A stretch of 59,350 nt of DNA from Flavobacteriales bacterium (GTDB lineage Bacteria > Bacteroidota > Bacteroidia > Flavobacteriales_D > Crocinitomicaceae), in assembly GCA_947505255.1 (NCBI GenBank), contig CANNKP010000002.1, positions 1 through 59,350 of the forward strand, given 5' to 3'. A program made the position numbers and the translations under genes. Positions within the stretch are counted from its first letter, which is position 1; each line of letters opens with the position of its first letter. The notes below the pieces were generated by a model. The model worked only from the letters and a program-made list of their open reading frames with translations, did not search any database and was not told the origin of the DNA. Shown here piece by piece: positions 21,907 through 26,088 of the stretch.

Positions 21907-23055
21907 ATGATTGGACAAACAATAGCAAATTACAAAATCATTTCTCCTCTCGGTGAAGGTGGTATGGCGAAAGTGTATTTGGCTCAACACCAATCTTTAG
22001 GGAATAATGTTGCGCTTAAACTTCTCAAAGAAGAATATGTCCAGCATCCAAACATTAGAAAACGTTTTTTAGCTGAGGCGCGCAGTTTGGCGCAAATGTC
22101 GCATCCCAATATCATTAAAGTAACCGATTTAATTGATGCTGGAGATATTGTTGCATTTGTAATGGAATACATTGAAGGGCAAACTTTAGAAGAGTTTTTG
22201 TTTAAAAAGGGGGAACTTTCTCGAACTGAAATTGAATCATTTTTCAACCAAATGATTTTAGCTGTTGAATATGTGCATTCACAAGGATTAATTCATCGTG
22301 ATATCAAACCATCCAATTTCATGGTGACAAAAAGTAGCCAGATAAAATTGTTGGATTTTGGAATTGCTAAGAACACAAATGAAGGTGCTGTTGATTATAC
22401 TAAGACTGGTTTAATGCAACAAATGGGAACGCCTCTGTACATGAGCCCAGAGCAAGTGAAAAATACTGCTGAGGTTACGAAACAAACAGATATTTATAGT
22501 TTGGGTGTTGTGCTGTGGCAGTTGGTTATGAATAAAAAACCGTATGATTCAGGAGAATTTTCTTTACCTGAAATACAGGTTTCAATTCTAAAAGAACCTC
22601 TGCCTTTAACGAATACTATTTGGGATACTATAATTCAAAAAGTAACGGCGAAAAAACCTGAAGACCGTTCAATTTATAAATTTCCTATAGTATTTCCGGA
22701 AGACACGATTTTAGAAGAAATACCATTATCATTTCCGCTTAAAAGGCCAGATATTGAAAATTCTATGATTATTGGAGATTTAGAAATAAAGACAAAAGAT
22801 TTAGAAAAAATGGATTGGTATAGAGCTGAAAAATCATGTGAAAATCTTGGTGATGGATGGAGATTGCCTACAGAAAAAGAGTTAGTTATACTCTTCGAAA
22901 ACAAAGAGGAAATTGGTGGTTTTGCTAATTATTACTATTGGAGTGCGAATGAGTACAATGACTATATTGCATGTTCTAAAGACTTTGCTAATGGAAACGA
23001 GGGAACTAATGATAAACCTAATTATATAAATGTCCGAGCAGTTCGCACTGTTTAA
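21907..23055 (+). CDS. Ser/Thr protein kinase fused directly to a truncated DUF1566/Lcl domain, no TM
   Basis: LGEGGMAKVYLAQHQSLG..., IHRDIKPSN; RLPTEKELVILFENKEEIGGFANYYYWSANEY...VRAVRTV; no hydrophobic helix between domains. Confidence 0.9.
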   Translation: MIGQTIANYKIISPLGEGGMAKVYLAQHQSLGNNVALKLLKEEYVQHPNIRKRFLAEARSLAQMSHPNIIKVTDLIDAGDIVAFVMEYIEGQTLEEFLFKKGELSRTEIESFFNQMILAVEYVHSQGLIHRDIKPSNFMVTKSSQIKLLDFGIAKNTNEGAVDYTKTGLMQQMGTPLYMSPEQVKNTAEVTKQTDIYSLGVVLWQLVMNKKPYDSGEFSLPEIQVSILKEPLPLTNTIWDTIIQKVTAKKPEDRSIYKFPIVFPEDTILEEIPLSFPLKRPDIENSMIIGDLEIKTKDLEKMDWYRAEKSCENLGDGWRLPTEKELVILFENKEEIGGFANYYYWSANEYNDYIACSKDFANGNEGTNDKPNYINVRAVRTV

Positions 23056-23066
23056 CTATTTTTCAT

Positions 23067-24563
23067 ATGCTCAACCAACAAATTCAAAATTACAAAATCA
23101 TCTCACTTCTTGGTGAAGGTGGAATGGCGAATGTATATCTAGCTCAGCACCAATCTTTGGGGAATAATGTTGCTATTAAACTTCTCAAAGAAGAATATGT
23201 CCAGCATCCAAACATTAGAAAGCGTTTTTTAGCTGAAGCACGAAGTTTGGCCCAAATGTCACATCCCAATATTATTAAAGTAACGGATTTAATTGACGCT
23301 GGCGATATCGTGGCTTTTGTCATGGAATACATTGAAGGGCAAACTTTAGAAGAGTTTTTGTATAAAAAAGGGGAATTAACACGAACTGAAATTGAATCAT
23401 TTTTCAATCAAATGATTTTAGCTGTCGAATATGTGCACTCACAAGGATTAATTCATCGTGATATTAAACCATCCAATTTTATGGTGACAAAAAGTGGCCA
23501 GATAAAATTATTGGATTTTGGAATTGCCAAGAACACAAATGAAGGTGCTGTTGATTATACTAAAACTGGTTTAATGCAGCAAATGGGAACGCCTTTGTAT
23601 ATGAGCCCAGAGCAAGTTAAAAACACTGCAGAGGTCACCAAACAAACAGATGTTTATAGTTTGGGTGTTGTGCTGTGGCAGATGGTCATGAATAAAAAAC
23701 CGTATGATTCAGGAGAATTTTCATTGCCAGAAATTCAAGTTTCAATACTCAAAGAACCTCTGCCTTTAACGCATACTATTTGGGACTCAACTATCCAAGA
23801 TGCGACAGAGAAAGACCCAACTAAACGCTTCTTAAAAATTAATTCTAAAAAAGGTGTGGAGTCAAAATCTGTTTCTGACACAGAAATTGATCCTGTGATT
23901 CCGAATCAAAAGCCAAAGAAAGAGAAGCAAGTGAGAATAACATATTTTAATTTTAAAACGATAAGTATTGGAGTTGGAATTTTGCTTTTTGTTGGAATAC
24001 TTTTAATTAATTTGATTAAAGGCGAAACGGCTGATACATTAGTTACAGCTTTTCCGGATGATAAAAAAACTGAAAATGTTGTTCCAACAGAAACAGCAGA
24101 TGTGCCAGTTTTGAAGGAAGAAAAGCAGAATAAGTTACCTGGTGAAAAAACAACAAATCAAAACCCTCCTTTGGTTAAAAAAGAAGAACCAATTGAATCA
24201 TCAAAAAATTTAAAAATTGGACAAAAATATCAAGGTGGTATTATTTTTTATTTGGATGATTCAGGAGAACATGGGAAAGTATGTACTGAAAAAGAAACTC
24301 TATCAGGTGATTGGGATGCTGCTATGGAGGAGTGTCGAAACCTAAGTTTAAATGGTTTTAATGATTGGTATTTGCCATCTAAAGTCGAATTAGAACGCCT
24401 TTACATTTATCGATCTGAGATTGGCGGTTTTGCTAATAAACCCTATTGGAGTTCTACGGAGGGCGATAACTACACCGCGTGGTTCCAGAATTTCACCAGT
24501 GGTTACCAGAACTTCTACAGTAAGATCTACACCTACTATGTTCGTGCAGTTCGTGCTTTTTAA
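23067..24563 (+). CDS. Ser/Thr protein kinase, TM, DUF1566/Lcl domain ending in candidate DGR variable region
   Basis: Kinase domain nearly identical to 21907 kinase; TM ISIGVGILLFVGILLINLI; IGQKYQGGIIFYLDDSGEHGKVC...FNDWYLPSKVELERLY...YWSSTEGDNYTAWFQNFTSGYQNFYSKIYTYYVRAVRAF. Confidence 0.93.
   Translation: MLNQQIQNYKIISLLGEGGMANVYLAQHQSLGNNVAIKLLKEEYVQHPNIRKRFLAEARSLAQMSHPNIIKVTDLIDAGDIVAFVMEYIEGQTLEEFLYKKGELTRTEIESFFNQMILAVEYVHSQGLIHRDIKPSNFMVTKSGQIKLLDFGIAKNTNEGAVDYTKTGLMQQMGTPLYMSPEQVKNTAEVTKQTDVYSLGVVLWQMVMNKKPYDSGEFSLPEIQVSILKEPLPLTHTIWDSTIQDATEKDPTKRFLKINSKKGVESKSVSDTEIDPVIPNQKPKKEKQVRITYFNFKTISIGVGILLFVGILLINLIKGETADTLVTAFPDDKKTENVVPTETADVPVLKEEKQNKLPGEKTTNQNPPLVKKEEPIESSKNLKIGQKYQGGIIFYLDDSGEHGKVCTEKETLSGDWDAAMEECRNLSLNGFNDWYLPSKVELERLYIYRSEIGGFANKPYWSSTEGDNYTAWFQNFTSGYQNFYSKIYTYYVRAVRAF
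24444..24563 (+). other. candidate DGR variable region (VR)
   Basis: C-terminal 39 codons plus stop; 15 of 21 pyrimidine-ending codons between GGC(24462) and TAT(24537) end in C, with varying first two bases (GGC, AAC, TAC, ACC, TTC, ATC) on a conserved framework. Confidence 0.75.
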
Positions 24564-24591
24564 CCATTTATCGATTTAACTATATAAAAAA

Positions 24592-26088
24592 ATGATCAAC
24601 CAGCAACTAAATAATTACAAAATCATATCTCTTCTTGGTGAAGGAGGGATGGCATTTGTTTATTTGGCGCATGATAATAAATTTGATACAGAAGTTGCGA
24701 TAAAGATTCTTAAAAAAGAATTTGTACATAATGAGAACATCCGAAAACGCTTTTTGGCGGAAGCAAAAAATATGTTTAAAATGTCGCATCCCAATATCAT
24801 TAAAGTAACTGATTTAATAGATGCTGGAGATATTGTTGCCTTTGTCATGGAATACATTGAAGGACAAACGTTGGATGAATACATTAAAGTTAATGGAGTA
24901 TTTAAAGATGATGAAATCGGTAGGTATTTACCGAAAATGCTGAAGGCGATTGAATATGTTCATTATAAAGGTTTCATTCACCGAGATATAAAACCATCTA
25001 ATTTTATCTTGACAAAAGATCATGAAATTAAATTGCTTGATTTTGGAATAGCAAAAAATACAAATTCTGATAGTGACGATTATACCTCAACAAATTTAGG
25101 ACAGCAAATGGGGACTCCTTTGTACATGAGTCCTGAACAAATTGAATGTGTCGCACCAATAACTAAACTAACAGATATTTATAGTTTGGGGGTAACTTTA
25201 TGGTTTATGGTAATGGGACATTCTCCCTACAACTTGAAAGATATCAGCATCCTTTCATTACAAAATAAAATTCACAAAGAGCCCCTGCCATTAACGCAAA
25301 CCTCATGGGACTCAACAATCCAACAAGCAACAGAAAAAGACCCAACAAAACGCTCCTTAAAAATTAATTCTAAAAAAGGATTGGAGACAAAATCTGTTTC
25401 TGACACAGAAATTGATCATGCGATTCCGAAGCAAAAGCCAAAGAATAAGGAGCAAGTAAGAATAACATATTTTAATTTTAAAACGATAAGTATTGGAATA
25501 GGAATTTTACTTTTTGTTGGAATAGTTATTTTCAATTTGAGTAAAGATGGAGCTGTCGATAGATCAGTTAAAACTATTCCGGATGATACAAGTAATGAAA
25601 TTGTTGTTCCAACAGAAACAGCAGAAATGCCAGTTTCGAAGGAAGAAGAGCCAAAAAAGTTACCAGTTGAAAAAACTACAAATCAAAACTCTCCTGTGGT
25701 TATAAAGGAAGAACCAATTGTAACGTTAACTAAATTAAAAATTGGTCAAAAATACCAAGGTGGAATTATTTTTTATATAGATAATTCAGGAGAACATGGA
25801 TTAGTATGCGCGACAATTGACCAAGGAAAGTATAATTGGGCAAACGCGATTTCGGTCTGCAAATATTCAGACTTAAATAAATATTCTGATTGGTATCTGC
25901 CATCAAATACAGAGTTGAATTTACTTTTTCAACAAAAAGCAAAGATTAATGGATTCATAAATGATTATTATTGGAGTTCTTCAGTAAAATCAAATGGTAA
26001 TGCATATTCACAGTCATTTGAAAGCGGTTATCAGGGCGATGGAGATAAAAATCTAACTAATTCAGTTCGTGCAATACGTAAATTTTAA
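24592..26088 (+). CDS. Ser/Thr protein kinase, TM, DUF1566/Lcl domain
   Basis: LGEGGMAFVYLA, IHRDIKPSN; TM/linker nearly identical to 23067 kinase; YWSSSVKSNGNAYSQSFESGYQ...VRAIRKF. Confidence 0.92.
   Translation: MINQQLNNYKIISLLGEGGMAFVYLAHDNKFDTEVAIKILKKEFVHNENIRKRFLAEAKNMFKMSHPNIIKVTDLIDAGDIVAFVMEYIEGQTLDEYIKVNGVFKDDEIGRYLPKMLKAIEYVHYKGFIHRDIKPSNFILTKDHEIKLLDFGIAKNTNSDSDDYTSTNLGQQMGTPLYMSPEQIECVAPITKLTDIYSLGVTLWFMVMGHSPYNLKDISILSLQNKIHKEPLPLTQTSWDSTIQQATEKDPTKRSLKINSKKGLETKSVSDTEIDHAIPKQKPKNKEQVRITYFNFKTISIGIGILLFVGIVIFNLSKDGAVDRSVKTIPDDTSNEIVVPTETAEMPVSKEEEPKKLPVEKTTNQNSPVVIKEEPIVTLTKLKIGQKYQGGIIFYIDNSGEHGLVCATIDQGKYNWANAISVCKYSDLNKYSDWYLPSNTELNLLFQQKAKINGFINDYYWSSSVKSNGNAYSQSFESGYQGDGDKNLTNSVRAIRKF

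Follow-up and report, generated by a model that had tools for sequence, protein, structure and literature searches.

The 3' end of the Ser/Thr kinase gene at 23067-24563 of the window, which is the whole 59,350-nucleotide stretch of DNA analysed here, is a DGR variable region (VR). In the account that we favour, to which we give a probability of about 0.8, this end was acquired by a kinase in the ancestor of its clade and has since served as a remote DGR target.

Layout and surroundings of the kinase gene

The predicted protein joins a kinase domain, in which the HRDIKPSN and DFG motifs can be read, through a transmembrane helix and a linker to a C-terminal Lcl_C domain. The VR is located in this C-type-lectin-like domain (Pfam: Lcl_C) and runs to the stop codon. 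The features referred to below are the following (coordinates, strand, description and, in brackets, the evidence used):

23067..24563, +, target gene, Ser/Thr kinase with transmembrane helix and Lcl_C domain, 498 aa (ORF translation, Pfam)
23091..23711, +, kinase domain, residues 9-215 (Pkinase match, E 7.5e-55)
23961..24017, +, predicted transmembrane helix ISIGVGILLFVGILLINLI (read from sequence; basic residues precede it)
24282..24554, +, Lcl_C domain (PF07603, former DUF1566), residues 406-496 (Pfam, E 7.8e-14)
24444..24560, +, DGR variable region, 117 bases homologous to templates (template matches and comparison)
24462..24539, +, mutated core of the VR, 17 adenine-position changes and 0 framework changes (template comparison, codon counts)
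24540..24560, +, IMH-like constant end GTTCGTGCAGTTCGTGCTTTT (comparison with templates and VRs of relatives)
24564..24585, +, AT-rich flank that true DGR target genes have too, their downstream hairpin CCGC..GCGG absent (flank comparison)
21907..23055, +, sister kinase with an ordinary non-VR Lcl_C end, kinase domains 91% identical in aa sequence (sequence comparison, tree)
24592..26088, +, next kinase, ortholog of L079:13968-15464 in genome G003, Lcl_C end in host codons (sequence comparison, tree)

The basic residues before the helix suggest an N-in, C-out topology, and the Lcl_C domain would be periplasmic and sense ligands. A C-type-lectin-like fold of the DUF1566/FGE type had been proposed for it from the DNA letters, and Pfam indeed assigns the domain to Lcl_C/DUF1566. 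The 125-residue C-terminal domain was modelled by AlphaFold2, using 33 relatives, with a mean pLDDT of 93.5, and its profile matches PDB entries 8q4e (HbP1; E 9e-27) and 4eps (E 0.0024), the latter having been likened to the DGR protein TvpA (PMC4159848).

The gene sits in a kinase run inside an FHA / PP2C / kinase / OmpA cluster (~5582-32690). This part of the window is a dense phospho-signalling cluster. It encodes nine or more Ser/Thr kinases, one PP2C phosphatase, an OmpA/PD40 protein and FHA proteins, among them one FHA-M48 peptidase and one FHA-ABC transporter, and kinase runs likewise occur in genomes G001, G002, G003 and G008.

Codon signature and templates in related genera

The sequence-only reading had pointed to an unusual codon style in the last 39 codons, which it translated correctly and which end ORF 23067-24563. 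Its counts proved exact: between 24462 and 24539, 15 pyrimidine codons end in C and 6 in T (single-window binomial P = 5e-6 for 15/21), and G+C is 35/78. The 42 ORFs of the window have a C/(C+T) of 0.237. Among all 26-codon stretches that contain 15 or more codons ending in a pyrimidine, the highest values (up to 15/20) belong to this tract, and nothing else in the window exceeds 9/15. The neighbouring kinases have the same protein ending in ordinary AT-rich host codons. As for the variable positions, the NNC codons listed earlier do vary, but the set is slightly larger, with a GAT and two AGT codons also at template-adenine positions, where real templates read GAT and AAT.

To guess the template, we wrote AAC in place of the variable codons and queried the resulting 117 bases against 240 genomes of the same family. 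Apart from the window itself, the top matches proved to be genuine template repeats (G113:C16, 96% identity over 102 bases; G248:C24, 92%; G175:C122, 92%), each lying 0.7-0.8 kb from its cognate VR and directly upstream of a DGR-type reverse transcriptase (RT) with the SQ-motif LPIGNLTSQ; the G175 RT is divided between two reading frames. An additional template with an RT was present at G100:C34, and G026 has an SQ-motif RT adjoining an AAC-rich template-like stretch. An AAC-rich near copy beside a DGR RT, as the sequence-only reading anticipated, is thus found in genomes of the same family, though not in the window's own. The target VR shares about 79-80% identity with the templates of related genera (24-25 differences in 117), its own assembly holding no DGR, and the template that it calls for would read like ...AACGCGTGGAACCAG...TATGTTCGTGCAGTTCG. 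The scaffold ENDNNNAWKQNFNNGNQNNNNKNNNNYVRAVRGF is common to the templates of the Flavobacteriales cassettes L129-L131. Of the many template cores in IMG/VR, none resembled the window more closely than those from Flavobacteriales did, and the phage and plasmid collections searched contained no close copy of the template. The search also shows that the codons of a single VR allow a template to be predicted and then traced in relatives. This is an aid in detecting remote targets overlooked by RT-centred surveys, an acknowledged blind spot (PMC8144416).

Other VRs of the same family came to light. In L164:5280-6775 (IMGVR_UViG_3300020185_004330), and also in L165 and L167, as many as five small genes stand in tandem ~344 bp apart, each ending in a different VR, and the part that was read contains no RT. 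A close VR of the family also occurs in a MAG labelled Candidatus Cloacimonadota (L148, JAUVLU010000012.1), reflecting either cross-phylum transfer or a binning error.

With the templates of these other genera as reference, the core differences fell almost wholly at template adenines, in 19 of 20 cases against G248 (Fisher 1e-6), 18 of 19 against G113 (Fisher 1.6e-6) and 18 of 20 against G175 (Fisher 1.1e-5), in agreement with the adenine mutagenesis of an AAC-rich template claimed at the outset. In G248 and G113 themselves, the VRs of the two cassettes have every core difference at a template adenine (20/20 and 21/21). Framework positions 33 (C/T) and 42 (A/C) are polymorphic in the family; when both are allowed for, the target VR is changed at 17 adenines and nowhere in the framework over 96 bases, against 23 and 28 framework differences in two paralogous kinases of the window. 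The template-homologous stretch closes the ORF, and the extreme C-terminal position first ascribed to the VR is correct. Judged by these comparisons, the last 39 codons of the target kinase are a genuine DGR-written hypermutated segment. Given that Lcl_C domains are widespread and have a conserved protein framework, the tract might have been explained with no DGR involved, by chance or by the codon bias of an ordinary domain of this kind. We consider this virtually impossible: it is refuted by the paralogs, which encode the same protein framework in host codons, and by the template matches, the DNA framework, synonymous bases included, being that of DGR templates of other genera.

Missing reverse transcriptase, hairpin and history of the variable region

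Searches with PF00078 and a DGR RT query detected no DGR RT in the window or its own MAG (69.3% complete), nor in 25 congeners. The window lacks both RT and template, as had been stated, and so does the MAG. A lack of RT in the genome or close relatives had been named as grounds for rejecting a DGR; it holds at the level of the genus (26 genomes) but not of the family. Those RVT_1 matches in the genus whose motif region was read were QG-type (or VGAP), retron/intron-like RTs, none of them DGR-type, and an LPIGISAS RT in G008 was likewise not DGR-type. The assembly (MAG 69% complete) yielded no template repeat of its own and no further copy of the target VR, and a template-core pattern search of the genome returned the VR itself and chance matches only. 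Either the RT of the target VR lies in the third of the genome that the MAG lacks, or its loss is recent.

Congener G005 (99% complete) has VRs with 2 and 4 framework differences, a truncated template and no RT. At L088:6575-7430 (G005:C1:220574-221430) a VR is followed by a template broken off after ~74 bases, without an RT, which makes this locus a broken DGR cassette. L089:3625-4980 (G005:C25) encodes a second membrane-protein VR in the genus, in which a hydrophobic stretch precedes the Lcl_C VR and the N-terminus is non-kinase, possibly J-domain-like (no Pfam match).

The IMH-like end of the target VR, GTTCG...GCTTTT, carries the VR-type letter C at VR position 113, where the cassette templates of G248, G175 and G113 have G and their VRs, like most VRs of the family, have C. 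Within ~90 bases past the VR stop, 14 of the 19 bacterial VRs of the family with usable flank have a hairpin, CCGC-(GAA/GTA/GGA)-GCGG or a one-mismatch form, which is absent downstream of the target VR and at all five templates inspected (0/5). The conserved hairpin lies 3' of the VRs of L129, L131, L133, L141, L143, L144, L146, L149-L152, L157, L158 and L161. Hairpin-like strings also occur in the window's own genome (C49, C199), with no VR adjoining either. By analogy, the hairpin of Flavobacteriales VRs is probably a homing element comparable to that of BPP-1, which matters for homing yet is not absolutely required (PMC3240598, PMC12875486). On the same analogy, its absence is the main argument against strong present activity of the target VR. 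Since neither a DGR RT in the 26 genus members nor the family hairpin was found, present mutation activity can be called no more than possible.

VR-derived ends are also found on same-clade kinases of the congeners G003 and G001. Against the template, the G003 kinase (L079 12383-13921) shows 11 framework differences and the kinase that follows it 18, and the VR end of the G001 kinase (L080 950-2437) is altered too, with insertions. Lcl_C kinases form one clade (support 100/99), within which the window, G003 and G001 kinases belong to one subclade of six (97/94) but are not each other's nearest rows. The junction of the G003 pair is that of the window pair 23067/24592, save for an inserted palindromic stretch. 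As a gauge of divergence, 24592 and G003b, the orthologs next to these genes, have 50 differences among 236 comparable third positions. Decayed copies of the same VR end same-clade kinases in two congeners; the target VR has therefore probably long been a remote DGR target, and was written afresh in the window's lineage. VR and flank would have entered the kinase before the species split, decayed in G003 and G001, and been rewritten in the lineage of the window.

The VR might instead be a fossil, written by a DGR whose RT and template have since been lost, leaving the receptor frozen at one specificity. This is a serious contender, which we nevertheless place below even odds. The absence of a DGR RT from all 26 genus genomes, the VRs and truncated template that persist without an RT in the nearly complete G005, the missing hairpin and the visible decay of the G003 and G001 kinase VRs all speak for it. 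Against it stand the mere 69% completeness of the MAG and the nil framework drift of the target VR, compared with the third-position divergence of 24592 and G003b, so that any loss of RT and template must be recent. The kinase VR could also have been refreshed by gene conversion from another VR gene, without ever being a homing target. The flank shared past the VR implies at least one DNA-level transfer, and the absent hairpin would fit as well, but the donor would have to lie in the missing part of the genome, the assembly having no second copy; we regard such copying as improbable.

Under the preferred reading, remote targeting by a DGR, an Lcl_C-tailed membrane Ser/Thr kinase of the clade ancestor would have gained the 3' end of a DGR target gene (VR plus ~22 bp of flank), and its VR would afterwards have served as a remote target. 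A DGR-type RT would copy the RNA of an AAC-rich template, inserting random bases wherever it meets an adenine, and the cDNA would replace the VR between TATTGGAGTTCTACGGAG and the constant GTTCG...GCTTTT end, so that some 17 codons would be re-drawn and the lectin-like scaffold kept. The altered periplasmic domain may then sense different ligands and signal via one helix to the kinase, and from there to the surrounding FHA/PP2C/kinase network. The last rewriting in this lineage would be recent; RT and template would reside in an unassembled part of the genome or have been lost since, and the DGR most likely acted in trans. A stronger version, in which this is a live hypermutable receptor kinase of Bacteroidota, with cells differing in a periplasmic VR that an unassembled DGR writes in trans, homing without the usual hairpin and feeding a cytoplasmic phospho-signalling network, is a tentative proposal that we find rather doubtful.

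Relation to known kinase and lectin-fold targets

A hypermutable receptor kinase was initially not recognised as an established system. This needs correcting: kinases with C-type-lectin DGR domains, remote ones included, are established in cyanobacteria, where Ser/Thr kinases carry a C-terminal lectin-fold VR and many lie far from the RT (PMC7517822). As in this remote kinase-CLec class, the target gene fuses a Ser/Thr kinase to a C-terminal VR domain with no RT adjacent, and it shares the N-terminal Hanks-type kinase, the lectin-like VR at the extreme C-terminus and the position off the RT locus. Unlike the cyanobacterial proteins, it comes from Flavobacteriales, has Lcl_C/DUF1566 instead of the cyanobacterial CLec and a membrane helix between kinase and VR, and its RT was not found in the genome or genus.

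Pkinase is also among the DGR target domains of Thiohalocapsa PB-PSB1, whose remote VRs are diversified in trans and match the template at all non-adenine sites, and some of whose CLec domains are predicted to be periplasmic, as may be that of the window kinase; there, in contrast to the window, RT, template and natural variation have all been seen, and the targets are mostly conflict-system NTPases (PMC10907252). DUF1566 often serves as the VR domain in DGRs of the human microbiome, and the window gene shares this domain and the template scaffold with gut Bacteroidetes targets (PMC4159848) and with the Flavobacteriales cassettes L129, L130 and L131, whose targets, unlike the window kinase, are secreted, often collagen-like and RT-adjacent, and are not kinases. 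DGR-diversified Ser/Thr kinases now extend to Flavobacteriales, in a receptor layout where a predicted membrane helix separates the kinase from the variable domain. A single clade has both a fresh kinase VR, in the window, and decaying ones, in G003 and G001, a natural series in which to follow how targeted hypermutation of a receptor is gained and lost.
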